A stretch of DNA of 46,170 bases from the NCBI GenBank assembly GCA_025363075.1, contig JANYEP010000002.1, forward strand, positions 1 to 46,170. Direction: 5' to 3'. This DNA comes from Chitinophagaceae bacterium (GTDB lineage Bacteria; Bacteroidota; Bacteroidia; Chitinophagales; Chitinophagaceae). This document shows, in pieces, positions 1-7,751 of this stretch. Position numbers and translations under genes: made by a program. Positions within the stretch are counted from its first letter, which is position 1, and each line of letters starts with the position of its first letter. The notes below the pieces were generated by a model. That model was given only the letters and a program-made list of their open reading frames with translations, was not told where the DNA came from and did no database searches.

Positions 1-1171
1 TAAGCAAAGTAACTATCATCAAAATGGGATACATTCTTCTACTGGTGTATTTCTTTCCAGTGTAATAATAAATTCCAATGAGAGCTATCACCAAGAAAAT
101 CATATAATATTCTATCGTCAAATAAGTTTGATTATCCAACAACAAAATACCTATTAAAATAAATGGAGAAATCAAGGTTAATAATTCATACAGCCTCCCT
201 TTAAAAATAACAAATACATAAATCAATAAAGGTGTCATTAAAAGCAAATACCCTTGAAAAACAATTTGTGTTTGAGCACGAATATTTGTACCAATAAAAC
301 TATGGGTAACATATTGCTTCATATTATCTGCACCTGTAAAAATATTTCCTAAACTTTCTGTCCCTGTAATGCTCCAATTCGCATACTGACTTGTTAAAAA
401 ATAAGTTGCATTACCAGCGTGAACTTGACATAATAATCTAAAAAGATATATTGCAGTTAGTGGCAATAAAAAAAGAATAATATAGATAGCAAAAGTCCTA
501 TTTGTAAGCTTTCTACGCTGAGAGCGGTTATTTACAGATTCATAATACTGAATAATTGGTGAACCCATTTTTGCTTGCTTCAATCCCTCTAAAGAAACCA
601 ATACAACAAAGGGAATGAGAGCCAATAACAACCAAATAAAATTGTAATTACAAAACACCAAACAAGTTAAATATATACTTCCCATTGATAATGAAAAAGT
701 AGTTTGCGTTTTGTAGTAAACAAATAAACTTCTAAAAAGTAAATAGAAAAAAAGCAACATCAATGCAATGCCTCTACCAGATGTTCCAACATAAATAAAT
801 CCTGGATGAAACACAAATAATAAACACAACATTGGAATAAAAAATCTTTTTTGCAAATTAGATTTTGAAAAGTCTTGCAAGAAAAGAAAGAACAATAATG
901 TAGTAAATGTTGCTGATGCTAATATTGGTGCAAATGGATAACCAAAAACTGAGAACACAACAGTTGATAAATATACTAACGATGGAAATGTAGTACCCAA
1001 GGTTAATAGTGTATTATCTCTTGCTTCAAAAAGCAAACGAGTTTTCTCTGCAAGAAACAATGATTCTGAATGTTCGAATCCTGTTCTATGCAATACCCAA
1101 GCTAAAACTAAGTAGTAGCTAAGCAATAGTATTGCCAATAAAGCAGGAACATATTTTCTTAAAAATACCAT
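1..1171 (-). CDS. Multi-pass membrane protein, partial (possible GT-C-like glycosyltransferase)
   Basis: An uninterrupted reading frame starts at the ATG at 1171 and leaves the window after 390 codons. It begins MVFLRKYVPALLAIL. The product is almost entirely hydrophobic, with at least eight likely membrane helices broken by short basic loops. The first periplasmic-side loop after helix 1 has acidic residues (GFEHSES, about residues 31-37), a layout seen in GT-C enzymes such as PMT/ArnT relatives, but I see no decisive motif. The start lies five bases after the stop of the GT2 synthase gene, so the two are almost certainly co-transcribed and perhaps translationally coupled. A role in making, modifying or exporting the same polysaccharide is inference. 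A flippase-like or acyltransferase-like membrane protein is an alternative. The C-terminus is outside the window. Confidence 0.7.
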   Translation of the reverse strand, partial: MVFLRKYVPALLAILLLSYYLVLAWVLHRTGFEHSESLFLAEKTRLLFEARDNTLLTLGTTFPSLVYLSTVVFSVFGYPFAPILASATFTTLLFFLFLQDFSKSNLQKRFFIPMLCLLFVFHPGFIYVGTSGRGIALMLLFFYLLFRSLFVYYKTQTTFSLSMGSIYLTCLVFCNYNFIWLLLALIPFVVLVSLEGLKQAKMGSPIIQYYESVNNRSQRRKLTNRTFAIYIILFLLPLTAIYLFRLLCQVHAGNATYFLTSQYANWSITGTESLGNIFTGADNMKQYVTHSFIGTNIRAQTQIVFQGYLLLMTPLLIYVFVIFKGRLYELLTLISPFILIGILLLDNQTYLTIEYYMIFLVIALIGIYYYTGKKYTSRRMYPILMIVTLL

Positions 1172-1176
1172 AGCTT

Positions 1177-3027
1177 TTAAATTGCTGGTGCAGTAGTTGC
1201 AGAAGACTGCTTACTAAGACCGTGATTAGTTTTTTCCCAATAAAATGGTTTATAAATCAATTGCCATAAGCCTTTGTAGGCAGCTATTGAGTGCATTAAC
1301 CAATAAACAGGATTGAGTGCAGAGAATAGAATTAACTCGTAATAACGGCGTTTGAAAACTGCCATCATATTAATGTAAATCATCAACACATTTCCTGCAA
1401 CGAAGTTGAAAATAGCGAAGTATAAAATCCAATCTGGAAACAATGCTTTGATACCAGAAATGTTGAATATTAAATACACAAAAAAGAACAATAGCAAAAT
1501 AGGATACACTAAGAAAGTGATAGCTGTACCACCAATAAAGAAGTTAAATCCAAAGAAACCACCCCAACCAATTCTACGAATTAAATGCACAGGATTTCTC
1601 ATATGCACCAAGTAGGTTTGCATATAACCTTTAATCCATCTACTACGTTGACGGATCCAGTTAAAAGGTTCGTTGTTTGCTTCTTCATAAGTAGTGCTTC
1701 TAACAATACCAATTTTGTATTGTTTGTCATAAACACGCACACCCAAATCGGCATCTTCTGTTACGTTGAATGGATCCCAACATCCAAGCTCAATTAGTTT
1801 ATCCAATTTAAAGTGATTACTTGTTCCACCCAATGGAATAGGCACATCCAGCGTCTCAAGCCCAGGCAACATATAGTCGAACCAATAAGAATATTCCAAG
1901 GTAAACATTCTTGTTAATAGGTTCTCATTTCTGTTGAAATAGTTTAACGCTCCTTGCACAACCACATATTCTTTTGGCAATTTCTTAAACATTAAAAATG
2001 CTTTCTTCAATTGCCAAGTATCAGGAATATCTTCAGCATCGTAAATGGTTAAAAGTTCTCCACGAGAAAAATAGATACCGTAGTTACAAGCTTTTGGCTT
2101 TGTTTTAGGCATCATAAAAGGAATGACAACAACCTCAAAGTTTGCAGGAAAATCTAATGATTTCACGGCGTTCAGAGTTTTATCATCATCTTCTTCTATC
2201 AATAATTTTACGTCCAATTTTTCTGGTGGATAATTTAATCCACGAAGATTCCAAATTAATTTACGAATCAGTTTATCTTCTTTATATACTGGGAGTAGAA
2301 TAGTATAAACAGGAACTTCTTCATTTTTTACTGCACCCAATTCTTCAATAGAAACATCATCGTGCAACTCTGATTGAGAACCTTTAAGAGCTAAATATAA
2401 TTTAAAAAGAATTGAACCCAAGAAAGCAAAACTTGCTAAAAAATTGAGGACAATAATTGTAGGAATGGTGTAAACAAATAATGCAATAACTGCAAGGGCA
2501 ATGGTGGAAAAAAGAGTAATTAATTGAGGGTCTGTAAATGTGATGTGACCAGAACTTGTAGGATCTTTCTTCATTAAGCTATAAACAGATTCGTTAACCA
2601 AATCTCGTCCACGCTTTGTATGTGCAATCCAAGTAATATCTAAGTCATCGGCAGCAACCAACTTCACATTGGTTCTAAACTTTACCATTAAACTGTTGGC
2701 AAGTTTTTCATCAAAGGGATCGGCGGCAGCTACAAGTAAGCTGCCGTCGAAATCTTGTTTAAGAGGTATATATAAGAATGAATTAAGGTGGTGTATGTCG
2801 CACTGATTTAGATAAGATTCATCTATTTCATAATTTCTAACATCAACAAATTCCTTTCCTTCATTTTTCAAGAACGCTATGTAATCTTTACGAGTAAGAA
2901 AGCCAAAGCAAAGAGCAACTTTAATGGGTGCGTAGCTGTAAGTATTTGCTATTGCATCTACTTCCTTTAGTTTTTCAGCATCAAACCTGCGTTGCGATGC
3001 CATTATATCTATTGCACTACGAGTCAT
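1177..3027 (-). CDS. Processive GT2 glycosyltransferase with N-terminal MshEN/GspE-N-like domain
   Basis: This 616-residue inner-membrane polysaccharide synthase resembles NfrB/XagB-type enzymes. Residues about 30-140 look like the N-terminal domain of GspE/MshE ATPases (GFLT at 42-45, AADPFD at 101-106). Two membrane helices follow at about 168-212, then a GT-A domain with EEDDD (278-282), DAED (330-333), TEDAD (423-427) and QRSRW (460-464), the D,D,D,Q(Q/R)xRW set of processive synthases. C-terminal helices and a YWEKTNHG tail (597-603) complete it. There is no PilZ domain. The RLG part of the c-di-GMP-binding MshEN signature is replaced by API (33-35). The gene follows bcsB-like 3096-5123 by 68 bases and precedes a membrane protein by five bases. 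It probably joins nucleotide sugars into an extracellular glycan; the sugar is unknown. Confidence 0.9.
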   Translation of the reverse strand: MTRSAIDIMASQRRFDAEKLKEVDAIANTYSYAPIKVALCFGFLTRKDYIAFLKNEGKEFVDVRNYEIDESYLNQCDIHHLNSFLYIPLKQDFDGSLLVAAADPFDEKLANSLMVKFRTNVKLVAADDLDITWIAHTKRGRDLVNESVYSLMKKDPTSSGHITFTDPQLITLFSTIALAVIALFVYTIPTIIVLNFLASFAFLGSILFKLYLALKGSQSELHDDVSIEELGAVKNEEVPVYTILLPVYKEDKLIRKLIWNLRGLNYPPEKLDVKLLIEEDDDKTLNAVKSLDFPANFEVVVIPFMMPKTKPKACNYGIYFSRGELLTIYDAEDIPDTWQLKKAFLMFKKLPKEYVVVQGALNYFNRNENLLTRMFTLEYSYWFDYMLPGLETLDVPIPLGGTSNHFKLDKLIELGCWDPFNVTEDADLGVRVYDKQYKIGIVRSTTYEEANNEPFNWIRQRSRWIKGYMQTYLVHMRNPVHLIRRIGWGGFFGFNFFIGGTAITFLVYPILLLFFFVYLIFNISGIKALFPDWILYFAIFNFVAGNVLMIYINMMAVFKRRYYELILFSALNPVYWLMHSIAAYKGLWQLIYKPFYWEKTNHGLSKQSSATTAPAI

Positions 3028-3095
3028 ATATTTTTGCTTTCAAGAGAATGAATTATTAATGCTTTTTTCTTTACTATTACCAGTAACTAATACTA

Positions 3096-5123
3096 CTATA
3101 CTACTGCGTCAGTTGCTTGTTTTACTCTTCTCTTAACACCGAAGTAACCGAATACTAACAATATAAGAAGCAATCCAAGAATCCAGTATTTGTAGCTATC
3201 CCAGAATCTTTCGAAACCACTTGTATTGTTGCTGTAACTAACGATGCTATTATCTTCTGGAGCTTTAAAGAAATAGTTACTCATACCATTGCTGTTGGCA
3301 ATACAAACGTTACTTTCAATTTCGGTAAGCTGTGTACTAAAATTTTTAACTACACTCAAGTACGCAGATTGAATACTGCTATCGCCACCTAAAGCAGATA
3401 CCATTAAAACGGTATTTCCTTTATCTCTAAATATTTGTGCTAAACCACTACCAGAAAAATCATTTACAGAATAGTTAGCAGCACCTTGTAAACCCTTATA
3501 GATTTGAAAATCTTTGTCGAATTTAACAGGTAAACTTCCTTCATATTTTTTAGCAAATGCATCGTCTCTTGCAACCAATGCAATAACGTTATAGTCACCC
3601 AAATCACCAGCACTCGCAGTTGTAACAATTGGAGGAACGATTAAACGACTGAAATCGTTTTTAACTGGTGAGTTAATTTGATAATAGATTTCACCAACTG
3701 AAGCAACAACTTTGTTTAATATATTTGGAGATACAACAATCTTAGTTTGTTTTTTTCTGAACTCAGCAGGGAAGTTGAAGAAGCTATAGAACTTATTTTC
3801 TTTTTCGCCAGCATAAGTTAAAGTAGATGTTTTTGTGTTAATGAAAGCGAAGAAGTTGCTAAATCCATCTTTACAAACATTACTTCCAGGGTGAAAACGA
3901 AACTCGATTTCTAATGTATTGAATTTAGAAAGCAAATGTGGCTTCAAATCAATATCATTAATGAAATTTGCTTTGTCTAAAAGATTACCATTATAAACTA
4001 AATTTTGATTCAAATATACATTCACAAAACCTCTATCATCTGGTTTTAAAGTAGAGAAGAAACTCTCTAAGTGCAATGTCAATTTAGTAGGAATAGCATT
4101 AAAATCAGCAAGAGAGAAATTAAATTTCTTACGCAATGCACCTATACCTTCCATCAAATCTCCTCCACCTCCTAAGTCTTCTAATGTTGTAACAAGTGGT
4201 GAAGCACCAGCAATAACTTCAGAACTAAGACCAGCTTCGGCTATTAGTAATTTATTGCTAAATGCACTACTTAATCTTTTATTACTTGCTAATGTATTAA
4301 TAGCATTTTTATACCCAGCTTTATCTTGACCAGTAATTACCAAAACATAGCGTTGAGCAAATCCAGTGTTTACAGGAACCAAAGCAATTAAACCTTGACC
4401 AGCAGAAAGCTGTTGAGGCAATGCCTGTTTAACTGCATATGGTAATTTATCAACCACACCAGTAATGATACTTGCAGGCACTGAATCTTGTGGACTATAA
4501 GTTCCAGCAAAAACTTCTTTAGAAGCTGCACCTTGACGAACAATAGCATAGATTAAACCTCCAGCCATTAAATCATCAACATCACCATCAACAGGAGTAT
4601 AAACTGAACTATACTCTTGTATCATTTCTTTAATGCTACGTTGATAGGTAAATGCACCTTGAGTTGGAGCAGAAATATAAGAAGAGTTTTTAACTCCTAA
4701 CCAACAAGCTGGGTTGTCAATATCTTTACAATACTCATCACCAATGCTCATTTTAGCAGCAACACGAAGCTTAATAAATCTACCATCTGGTTGCAAATAT
4801 TTAGAGTTTAATGGAACTCTAAAACTAAGTAAGGTATCCAACGCAGATGTGATAACTCTTTGCGTGTAAACTGGCTCATCTTTTAAATAAACCACAACAA
4901 AAGAGTTGTTTGGATTCAATACTTGTGATGCACGAAGGTTAATAACAAGGCTACTTTGGTCAATGTTATCATCTGGTCTTACTTTAATAAAGTAACTTAA
5001 TGAACCAGAAATACCAATGATAGACGCATCGTCATATCCCATTGATTTGAATGTTCTGTCTTGTGCGAACATTTGCGTTGCACTAAACACTAAGGCTACG
5101 ACTAAGAGAAATTTAGATTTCAT
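3096..5123 (-). CDS. bcsB: BcsB-like cellulose synthase periplasmic subunit
   Basis: The 675-residue product has a signal peptide (MKSKFLLVVALVFSATQMFA), a long beta-rich periplasmic region, and one C-terminal membrane helix (about 645-665, YWILGLLLILLVFGYFGV) followed by basic residues. This is the topology of BcsB, the partner that anchors and guides the nascent chain leaving the synthase. Repeated features of the family are visible: an N-terminal module with LNSKYLQPDGRFIKLRV, a DEYCKDIDNPACW stretch with paired cysteines, and a second similar module around residues 380-440. It is somewhat shorter than the E. coli protein. The gene sits between a membrane kinase and the GT2 synthase on the same strand, which supports a synthase complex. 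The symbol indicates family only, because the glycan is not known to be cellulose. Confidence 0.85.
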   Translation of the reverse strand: MKSKFLLVVALVFSATQMFAQDRTFKSMGYDDASIIGISGSLSYFIKVRPDDNIDQSSLVINLRASQVLNPNNSFVVVYLKDEPVYTQRVITSALDTLLSFRVPLNSKYLQPDGRFIKLRVAAKMSIGDEYCKDIDNPACWLGVKNSSYISAPTQGAFTYQRSIKEMIQEYSSVYTPVDGDVDDLMAGGLIYAIVRQGAASKEVFAGTYSPQDSVPASIITGVVDKLPYAVKQALPQQLSAGQGLIALVPVNTGFAQRYVLVITGQDKAGYKNAINTLASNKRLSSAFSNKLLIAEAGLSSEVIAGASPLVTTLEDLGGGGDLMEGIGALRKKFNFSLADFNAIPTKLTLHLESFFSTLKPDDRGFVNVYLNQNLVYNGNLLDKANFINDIDLKPHLLSKFNTLEIEFRFHPGSNVCKDGFSNFFAFINTKTSTLTYAGEKENKFYSFFNFPAEFRKKQTKIVVSPNILNKVVASVGEIYYQINSPVKNDFSRLIVPPIVTTASAGDLGDYNVIALVARDDAFAKKYEGSLPVKFDKDFQIYKGLQGAANYSVNDFSGSGLAQIFRDKGNTVLMVSALGGDSSIQSAYLSVVKNFSTQLTEIESNVCIANSNGMSNYFFKAPEDNSIVSYSNNTSGFERFWDSYKYWILGLLLILLVFGYFGVKRRVKQATDAVV

Positions 5124-5215
5124 ATTATTTAAATTTACTGGGTACTTAATAATTGGTAATTGATAAATTGCAACTACCGTGTTTATGTTGTTTTTGATTT
5201 AAGTTATTCTTTAAA

Positions 5216-6595
5216 TTAATGGTTACTTGGAAATTCTATTTTAAAATAATTACCTGTTTTATCTTCACTACTATAAGTGAAAGTACCATCCATTGTTTCT
5301 ACTAATTTTTTAGTGGCAGCAAGACCTAAATCATTTAAAGCATTTTCGTCCGTTACAGTTAAAACTTTTAGTTTATTCACCATTTCGTTTAACTTATCTA
5401 CACCAATTGCTGCACCATGGCTAATTGTTTCAACAACAGCTTTACCATCAATATGTTCAGCTCTTACAGTAATGATAGAACCTGGTTGAGAATGACGAAT
5501 AACATTATTCATCAATTTATTCAACACCTGATCGGTAAACAATTTATCTTGATAAACATTATTTGCAGCAGGAGAAATATTTAGTTGCAAGCTCATACTC
5601 TTCAACATTGCAGATTCTGCAATATCTAACACAGCTTTTTCAACTTCAGGGTTTAAGTCAAAATATTCTTTGTTAAAATGTATAGTTGCATCGTGAGAGC
5701 CAGTAGCACTAACAGTTCCACTTAACTTTTGTGCTAAATAAATCAACTTATCATTTTGCGTCCCTATTGAATTGATAATATCCAATTGAGACGGCATTAA
5801 ATTATATGAAGTAGCTTTTAAAGTATCTAAAGAAGTTTTAACTGTATCGGTAAATGTTTTGTAATCGTGCATCAACACTGTCATATTTTCTTGACTGCTA
5901 ACATTTACAACTTTTAGTTTTCTGTTTGTTTCTTCAATTTGATAGTGTTGATCTTTAATTTTTTCATTTCTATCAACCAATTTATTATTGGCATCATCAA
6001 TCATTACACTTCTTTCAACATCTCTACATAAAATAGAGTAGCGAGTATATGCAAGTAAGCACGAAAACGCAGATATGATAAAATAAACTCCACCACCATG
6101 GTCAATCATTACTGCATATTTATCAACTCGTTGTTTTAAAGTGTATATAAAAAATATAATTACATAAGAAACTAAGCAAGTGTAAATAGAATAAATAGGT
6201 GACCAGAAAATAGTGGTATTAACTATCAACATTATTATTGATAAAATTAAAAAATATGCCAGGACAGAACCACTAATAGGAACAATGCCACAAATGATAG
6301 AATTAACAACAACGTTAACCCACACAAACCAAGTTACTGTTTTTAAATATCCCCAATTTTCCTTTGCCGAGTAGGTATATATTAAATAAGATAAGCCCCA
6401 TCCTACTAAGCGAATCAAAGAGAAATCAACCCAAGAATCTCTACAAAATAAATAATCAATCAAAAGAAAAACAGGAAGAGAAAACAAAGTTGTCCACATT
6501 ACAACATTTGCATAATACGCTCCCCTTTTGCTTAACTCTTGGTTGAAAGCAGTTTTGTTGATATTTGCGTAAGAAAATTTGTAATCGTTATACAT
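5216..6595 (-). CDS. Degenerate membrane histidine kinase
   Basis: I place the start at ATG 6595 (MYNDYKFSYA, 459 residues). A longer frame back to 6853 exists, but it would overlap the divergent GH5 gene and its extra residues look noncoding. Six or so membrane helices cover residues 30-190, then a coiled-coil linker at 200-235. A dimerisation-like segment has His243 in LMHDYKTF. The ATPase-like domain has an N box (356-367, NKLMNNVIRHS) and a G2-like DLGLA (422-426), but the G1 box is poorly kept (ETISHGAAIG, 389-398) instead of DxGxG. It may be a weak kinase or a pseudokinase sensor. No response regulator is next to it. It is first in the minus-strand polysaccharide cluster, 92 bases before bcsB-like, so control of synthesis is a reasonable inference. 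Confidence 0.78.
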   Translation of the reverse strand: MYNDYKFSYANINKTAFNQELSKRGAYYANVVMWTTLFSLPVFLLIDYLFCRDSWVDFSLIRLVGWGLSYLIYTYSAKENWGYLKTVTWFVWVNVVVNSIICGIVPISGSVLAYFLILSIIMLIVNTTIFWSPIYSIYTCLVSYVIIFFIYTLKQRVDKYAVMIDHGGGVYFIISAFSCLLAYTRYSILCRDVERSVMIDDANNKLVDRNEKIKDQHYQIEETNRKLKVVNVSSQENMTVLMHDYKTFTDTVKTSLDTLKATSYNLMPSQLDIINSIGTQNDKLIYLAQKLSGTVSATGSHDATIHFNKEYFDLNPEVEKAVLDIAESAMLKSMSLQLNISPAANNVYQDKLFTDQVLNKLMNNVIRHSQPGSIITVRAEHIDGKAVVETISHGAAIGVDKLNEMVNKLKVLTVTDENALNDLGLAATKKLVETMDGTFTYSSEDKTGNYFKIEFPSNH

Positions 6596-6605
6596 ATTAA
6601 AAATT

Positions 6606-7751
6606 ATGCAGTTAATTGTTGGGCAGTTAAATACACTTTCAAACGTGAAAATAAAGATTAAGATTTCAAGATTAGCATTCTTGATAACTTTCTCATTATC
6701 ATTATTACAATTCACATCTTGTGTAAAAAAAGGATTTCCGACATTGCCTGATATCAAGCGAAGTATGGGAGGAGGTACGAATTTATCTTGGTTTGAACAC
6801 AAATGGTCCTCGCCTGAAGATTTGTTAAATGCTGACCTAACTCCTAAACTCAATCAAATTGCCCAGCAAGGTTTTAAAACTGTTAGACTCCCTGTAGCCT
6901 TTGATTTGTTCGTTTATCCTAACTCTTCAACACTTCAACCACAACTACTAACGAAACTTAAGGAGATTTATTATACGTGCTACAATTTAAAATTACATTT
7001 AATCATAACTTACCACTATGGAATCTTCGATGACAACAGTTTATACAACGATGATATGAATCGGGTTTCGTGGATGTGGAAGCAAGTGCAACAAACATTT
7101 AAAGGGCACGGATACGACTACCTTTTCTTTGAATTGTACAACGAACCTACAATGGGTGCATATCGCTGGAAGCTAACAGCAGAAAAGCTTATAAACTATA
7201 TTAGAGGTGAAGATCTCAATAGAATTTACATCATAGGAGGCAGCAACTACAATGGCTTAGATGCACTTATTGAAATGGGCAAATTGAACGATGAAAAAAT
7301 TTTATATACATTCCATTTTTATGAGCCATACATTTTTACACATCAAGGGGCAGATTGGACGCAAGATAAAACTTATATGAAAGGTTTTCCTTATCCATAC
7401 AGAAGAAGAAAAATGCCATTGATGAGTAAAGATGCCACAGGAACAAGTGTTGAAAAAGATTACACCAAATACTATTACGAAGGAACTAAACAATATCTAA
7501 ACGACAGAATGAGCCAAGTATCCAACTTTTGTGCTGCCAATAAAATGCAGCTCATCTGCACAGAGTCTGGTGTAATAGATGTTGCAGACCCAACTTCTCG
7601 ATCAAATTATTTAAAAGATATTACAGCGAGTATGTATCAATATCGCATTCCTTGTATGCTGTGGGATTATGATCAACGCTTTTCAATTCATCAAGATTCT
7701 ACACACATTTTTCCTTCACTAAACAAATGGCTTAAGAAAACCAAGCGTTAA
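6606..7751 (+). CDS. GH5-family endoglucanase-like lipoprotein
   Basis: This glycoside hydrolase has a TIM-barrel GH5 pattern: the acid/base Glu180 in LYNEP, HFYEP on a middle strand, and the nucleophile Glu320 in CTESG (numbering from ATG 6606). The N-terminus carries a hydrophobic signal ending in LQFTSC, a lipoprotein-type cleavage site, so it should be membrane-anchored in the periplasm or at the surface. The first ATG is only 10 bases from the divergent kinase start. GTG 6645 would give the more typical signal MKIKIKISRL and may be the real start. Placement beside a BcsB-like/GT2 synthase matches cellulose loci, where a glucanase (BcsZ, family GH8) trims the growing polymer. A different beta-glycan as substrate is possible. 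Confidence 0.88.
   Translation: MQLIVGQLNTLSNVKIKIKISRLAFLITFSLSLLQFTSCVKKGFPTLPDIKRSMGGGTNLSWFEHKWSSPEDLLNADLTPKLNQIAQQGFKTVRLPVAFDLFVYPNSSTLQPQLLTKLKEIYYTCYNLKLHLIITYHYGIFDDNSLYNDDMNRVSWMWKQVQQTFKGHGYDYLFFELYNEPTMGAYRWKLTAEKLINYIRGEDLNRIYIIGGSNYNGLDALIEMGKLNDEKILYTFHFYEPYIFTHQGADWTQDKTYMKGFPYPYRRRKMPLMSKDATGTSVEKDYTKYYYEGTKQYLNDRMSQVSNFCAANKMQLICTESGVIDVADPTSRSNYLKDITASMYQYRIPCMLWDYDQRFSIHQDSTHIFPSLNKWLKKTKR

Follow-up and report, generated by a model that had tools for sequence, protein, structure and literature searches.

Positions 1 to 7,751 of the window (the whole stretch of DNA that was analyzed, 46,170 nucleotides of a Chitinophagaceae draft genome) hold a well-conserved Bacteroidota variant of a known cassette, a variant that is decoupled from c-di-GMP and linked to a kinase. 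Genes for a histidine kinase, BcsB, an MshEN-GT2 synthase, and a GT-C-fold protein follow one another in tight order on the minus strand, with a GH5 gene diverging from the kinase gene (Table 1). We think it likely that the locus encodes a dedicated machine for the synthesis and secretion of an extracellular polysaccharide. An earlier sequence-only reading of this DNA had proposed a distinct exopolysaccharide system that mixes an MshEN-GT2 with BcsB. Such a system is well supported, but the mix is not novel, and that reading had missed the GT-C partner, an outer-membrane barrel, and the lost c-di-GMP link.

Gene content and conservation of the locus

All five genes claimed by the sequence-only reading were found in their places, as were the tight minus-strand order and the divergent GH5. 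Along the minus-strand operon, the intergenic gaps are 92, 68, and 5 bases. Base 1 of the window coincides with a contig end (G000:C86) that breaks off the GT-C gene; the remaining C-terminal 133 aa are encoded at the beginning of another contig of this genome, C46 (G000:C46:2-403), with a short unassembled gap between the two. Since the next open reading frame on C46 runs on the opposite strand, the GT-C gene is apparently the last of the operon. The kinase is read from an ATG at 6595, the mechanical open reading frame from 6853 being too long, and the true start of GH5 may be a GTG near 6645. The kinase and GH5 frames (window 6595-6645) begin ~10 to 50 bases apart on opposite strands, and their promoters therefore probably overlap coding sequence.

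Table 1. Features of the locus, in window coordinates
Feature	Position	Strand	Basis or remark
GT-C-fold membrane glycosyltransferase-like protein, N-terminal 390 aa	2..1171	minus	cut by contig end; fold of relative's model
Processive-type GT2 synthase with N-terminal MshEN, 616 aa	1177..3027	minus	Pfam and alignment
MshEN domain of synthase	2629..2856	minus	Pfam match
BcsB-like periplasmic co-polymerase, 675 aa	3096..5123	minus	Pfam, AlphaFold model, Foldseek
Multi-span membrane sensor histidine kinase, 459 aa	5216..6595	minus	HATPase_c, alignment
Divergent secreted GH5 glycanase	6606..7751	plus	Pfam, alignment, PDB profile matches

A scan of a genome collection returned 291 relatives of the synthase, of which the best 80 loci were kept, and partners were counted only where the contig was long enough. 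Within these best 80, the kinase (66/66) and the GT-C protein (78/78) were always encoded on the strand of the GT2. The same was true of BcsB, which stood beside the MshEN-GT2 in 71/71 loci, and the pairing is thus not unique to the window genome, as the sequence-only reading had allowed it might be. Because these three partners share the strand of the GT2 in every locus with a long enough contig, the cassette is far beyond chance. GH5 was found in 51/66 of these loci and is absent from about a fifth; one more case (L051) was seen separately. The closest relatives in the collection are Chitinophagaceae, with a synthase 95% identical to that of the window, and the kinase-BcsB-GT2-GT-C cassette was found in Chitinophagaceae, Sphingobacteriaceae, and Spirosomaceae. 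Its carriers are Bacteroidota from soil and freshwater. Its occurrence in dozens of independent genomes, some of them from isolates, rules out an oddity of one MAG or an assembly artefact.

In an even draw of the phylum, the set of genomes with BcsB and the set with GT-C were identical, at 6 of 247 Bacteroidota genomes, which belong to four families (Fisher 3e-12, a value that ignores phylogeny and is descriptive). The order BcsB, GT2, GT-C is retained even in the two most distant operons, those of G223 and G073. Neither the G073 operon nor the Geobacillus version described below was found to have an adjacent kinase, and we take the core to be BcsB-GT2-GT-C for this reason. The open-licence literature yielded no publication that names the Bacteroidota locus.

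Encoded proteins and the outer-membrane barrel

The GT2 with a GspE/MshEN-like front domain was borne out, since both Pfam matches exceed their cut-offs and the catalytic motifs are all present: D281, D330/D333, TED (423-425), and QRSRW (460-464) are invariant in an alignment of 30 relatives whose mean column identity is 72%. In a profile comparison with single sequences as templates, BcsA scored above NfrB and PgaC. The GT2 also matches BcsA chains in the PDB, and its alignment with NfrB extends across the membrane part to a common W-x-K-T-x-H motif; against a curated CelA model it reaches 39.8 of 699 bits, far under the cut-off. By sequence, the GT2 does not stand nearer to NfrB than to BcsA.

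The BcsB-like protein matches PF03170 with 83 bits against a cut-off of 21, in two stretches, and has a signal peptide, two BcsB-type repeats, and a C-terminal membrane helix (636-674). Its profile gave no matches among PDB sequences. Its AlphaFold model (pLDDT 78.9) matches E. coli BcsB with a Foldseek E of 1e-31 and a Z of 22.2 (6yg8_B, with an rmsd of 5.0 over 561 residues). The best nine rows of the structural search were all BcsB and stood well above the remainder, which rules out a chance jelly-roll likeness. Structural unrelatedness to BcsB was looked for, and the model instead matched solved BcsB chains; by its predicted fold, the window protein is a true BcsB relative.

The eight canonical residues of the GH5 active site (R94, H137, N179, E180, H237, Y239, E320, and W353), with its two catalytic Glu, are invariant in 16 sequences, and the enzyme is predicted to be catalytically intact. 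Its nearest solved relatives in a PDB profile search include CelC, Cel5A, and CcsZ. The earlier description of a divergent GH5 lipoprotein holds for the family and the orientation, but not for the lipoprotein Cys, which is absent from most relatives; these seem to carry ordinary signal peptides.

The multi-span membrane protein noted earlier is present, but its GT-C fold and its truncation at the contig edge had been missed. It has no match to a Pfam family, and its profile gave none among PDB sequences. We assigned the fold from a full-length relative (L003:1922-3565) that is 91% identical to the window protein and whose AlphaFold model has a pLDDT of 81.7 and a pTM of 0.85. The closest PDB folds were ALG12 (Z 16.5), Pmt4 (16.4), and ArnT (16.1), and the leading 48 structural rows were all of GT-C type (ALG12, Pmt4, ArnT, PglB, and Aft/Emb). 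GT-C enzymes match the model throughout, which rules out a flippase or polymerase. On the strength of this model the protein has the GT-C fold, and a transferase role is predicted. E36, which follows helix 2-29 and is the acidic residue of the first periplasmic loop, is kept in 29/32 sequences and replaced in 3/32, and the C-terminal part retains the conserved D453/D454. Rather than decorating the polymer, the protein might transfer or anchor it to lipid or protein, or act as a non-catalytic scaffold. This is suggested by the shared fold of PglB/AglB-type ligases and by the loss of the first-loop acidic residue in a few sequences. We consider it unlikely given the retained E36 and D453/D454, although both features would fit a ligase as well as a decorating enzyme. 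A second GT-C-family match of 759 aa (L103, G223:C7, 5078-7357, minus strand) comes from a genome with the full operon as well, and no GT2 or BcsB was found in the surrounding 14 kb.

Between BcsB and GT2, a gene for a ~280-aa, beta-barrel-like protein with a signal peptide is found in Pedobacter, Spirosoma, Fibrisoma, and G223. The homolog in G073 is divergent, adjoins BcsB, and matches the Phenol_MetA_deg family. This barrel family is present in 6/6 operon genomes and in 2/241 others, both of them weak matches, and BcsC_C (PF05420) was detected in 0/12 locus-carrying genomes (E. coli control positive). In the Chitinophagaceae and Mucilaginibacter genomes examined, the barrel gene lies apart from the operon; the window genome's single copy is on C131, next to an acetyl-xylan-esterase-like gene. 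For these genomes its role therefore rests on co-occurrence and on linkage elsewhere. We infer an exit-pore role for the barrel in this system. Among relatives it is accompanied by acetyl-xylan-esterase-like genes and sometimes also by an acyltransferase, and the secreted polymer may be acylated.

The AXE1-type acetyl-esterase-like protein beside the window genome's barrel (L109, G000:C131, 1312-2742, minus strand) keeps a candidate serine, while the usual Asp and His, present in relatives such as L112:4726-6060, are missing by eye, and it may be a non-catalytic binding protein. Elsewhere, barrel and AXE1-esterase genes alternate in tandem, together with an acyltransferase (L113, G254:C15, 3430-11505; L110, G252:C4, 5047-11110); the arrangement resembles a repeated export and acylation module and is not linked to the synthase operon.

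Missing c-di-GMP motifs and the retained kinase

MshEN domains bind c-di-GMP through two RLGxx..Q motifs (PMC5013675). RLG is missing at both motif positions in all 30 aligned Bacteroidota sequences; in the window synthase, the motifs would be expected N-terminal to the Pfam-matched stretch, and they are missing there. Furthermore, no GGDEF domain was detectable in 13 genomes carrying the locus, no PilZ was found in the window synthase or the window genome, and the latter has no other MshEN proteins. The Bacteroidota branch with the locus thus seems free of c-di-GMP. In contrast, a plasmid-borne homolog from Geobacillus starts SRLGELLVKEKLLTPEQLEHALNYQ, an intact first RLG...Q motif, and its second motif retains LG and Q; a Hyphomicrobiales homolog retains G and Q of the first. 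These motifs are most simply read as the trace of a synthase that was ancestrally under c-di-GMP control and became uncoupled from it in Bacteroidota. The locus shows a c-di-GMP-type synthase that has stayed under strong selection where the messenger system was not found.

The fixed upstream kinase gene would be the best candidate for the replacement input. The kinase matches HATPase_c with 43 bits, and no response regulator is adjacent to it. Its phospho-acceptor His (H243 in the window) is kept in 66/71 aligned kinases, and the Asp that follows and the N-box Asn in 71/71, while most sequences have another residue for the G1-box Asp. The kinase had been called degenerate, which is right for the G1 box but applies only mildly to the protein as a whole; with the His kept in most sequences, a plain pseudokinase is unsupported. 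A few Chitinophagaceae copies (L004:6542-7918, L005:6557-7933, and the kinases of L007 and L016) have lost the His to D, N, or Y and kept the next Asp, their sequences hinting at conversion to pseudokinases.

It is possible, and we put this forward tentatively, that a repurposed c-di-GMP receptor domain, now answering to another ligand or to its own kinase, acts with an obligate GT-C protein and a non-BcsC barrel to secrete an undescribed decorated polymer.

Proposed mechanism, related systems, and the product

In the mechanism that we propose, the GT2 would polymerize a nucleotide sugar at the cytoplasmic side and, by way of its own channel, deliver the chain to the periplasm for BcsB to take and guide, as in BcsA-BcsB. 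The GT-C protein would decorate or cap the emerging chain on the periplasmic face, probably from a polyprenyl-phosphate sugar, and GH5 would trim or release chains, as does BcsZ. The chain would then leave through the ~280-residue outer-membrane beta-barrel in place of BcsC. Control would probably be exerted by the membrane histidine kinase, the first gene of the operon, rather than by c-di-GMP.

The combination has precedents, and the sequence-only reading erred in treating NfrB-type synthases with BcsB as unknown. Stalk-forming iron oxidizers carry bcsB-xagB-xagC-xagD (PMC4643136), redescribed as sfz1-6 with a BcsB-like protein, a GspE_N-GT2, a ~500-aa protein, and a glycoside hydrolase (PMC8250860). 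The Bacteroidota locus has this gene order in common with these clusters of Beta- and Zetaproteobacteria, and its GT-C protein matches Sfz3/XagC in size and position. It differs in having the kinase first and GH5 on the opposite strand, in the absence of GGDEF from the genomes tested, and in lacking the c-di-GMP motif of MshEN. In Achromobacter xylosoxidans, nfrA-nfrB cluster with a BcsB homolog; the NfrA/NfrB system of the NGR glycan (PMC8669472) has GT2 and MshEN in common with the window. However, NfrB carries its MshEN C-terminally rather than N-terminally, is controlled by c-di-GMP, and works with the TPR-type pore NfrA, with no GT-C protein described. The clostridial ccsZABHI locus likewise joins a GT2 with a GH5 glycanase, but CcsB is unrelated to BcsB and CcsA has PilZ (PMC7710045).

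The same three genes in the same order as the window core also occur on two plasmids, with GT2s 41 to 47% identical to that of the window over most of its length. Geobacillus plasmid pEF60063-1 (CP128455) encodes a ManC-like nucleotidyltransferase, BcsB, GT2, and GT39, and Hyphomicrobiales UR115 plasmid CP131057 a divergent GH113, a BcsB-like protein (profile E 5e-10), an MshEN-GT2, and a GT-C-like protein. The third gene of both cassettes matches the GT-C profile, whereas tblastn with GT-C gave no match in the plasmids; no barrel was found in either plasmid stretch. ManC-like or GH113 neighbors stand where Bacteroidota have the kinase and GH5. Plasmid and Bacteroidota versions together show BcsB-GT2-GT-C to be a cassette that spans phyla and whose hydrolases and regulators are interchangeable.

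These neighbors bear on the product, since a ManC-like gene and GH113, which we take to be a family of beta-mannanases, point to mannose. A beta-mannan or glucomannan, decorated by the GT-C protein from polyprenyl-phosphate mannose, would also agree with the mannosyltransferases among the closest GT-C folds, with a phosphomannose isomerase near the sfz clusters (PMC8250860), and with the activity of the GH5 relative TmCel5A on both mannans and glucans (PMC7710045). Nevertheless, no ManC-like, GH113, or similar gene adjoins the window locus, the sugar used cannot be read from the fold, and different phyla need not make the same product, so that we regard a mannose-containing polymer as improbable. 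Plain beta-1,4-glucan, made by a divergent cellulose synthase with GT-C and MshEN as accessories and with GH5 and BcsB acting as in Bcs, is quite unlikely: the BcsB fold, the likeness of the GT2 to BcsA, and the endoglucanases nearest to GH5, among them CcsZ of the clostridial cellulose locus (PMC7710045), argue for it, but the low CelA score, the mannose-related neighbors of related cassettes, and an obligate GT-C partner foreign to known cellulose synthesis argue against. A plain Bcs cellulose locus is ruled out, for although GT2, the BcsB co-polymerase, and a glycanase are common to both, PilZ and BcsC were not found in the genomes tested, GH5 stands in place of GH8, and a GT-C partner is added.

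The locus suggests that the partner gene next to BcsB and MshEN-GT2 genes elsewhere may encode a GT-C glycosyltransferase, and it ties a barrel pore to this system. The question of what these cassettes make extends to the stalk clusters of iron oxidizers, and because cultured Mucilaginibacter, Pedobacter, and Spirosoma carry the locus, both the product and c-di-GMP-free switching are testable. Finally, E. coli YbcH (ybcH, L114:5095-5982), a DUF4434 protein, adjoins nfrA/nfrB and, speculatively, might fill the glycanase slot of such cassettes.
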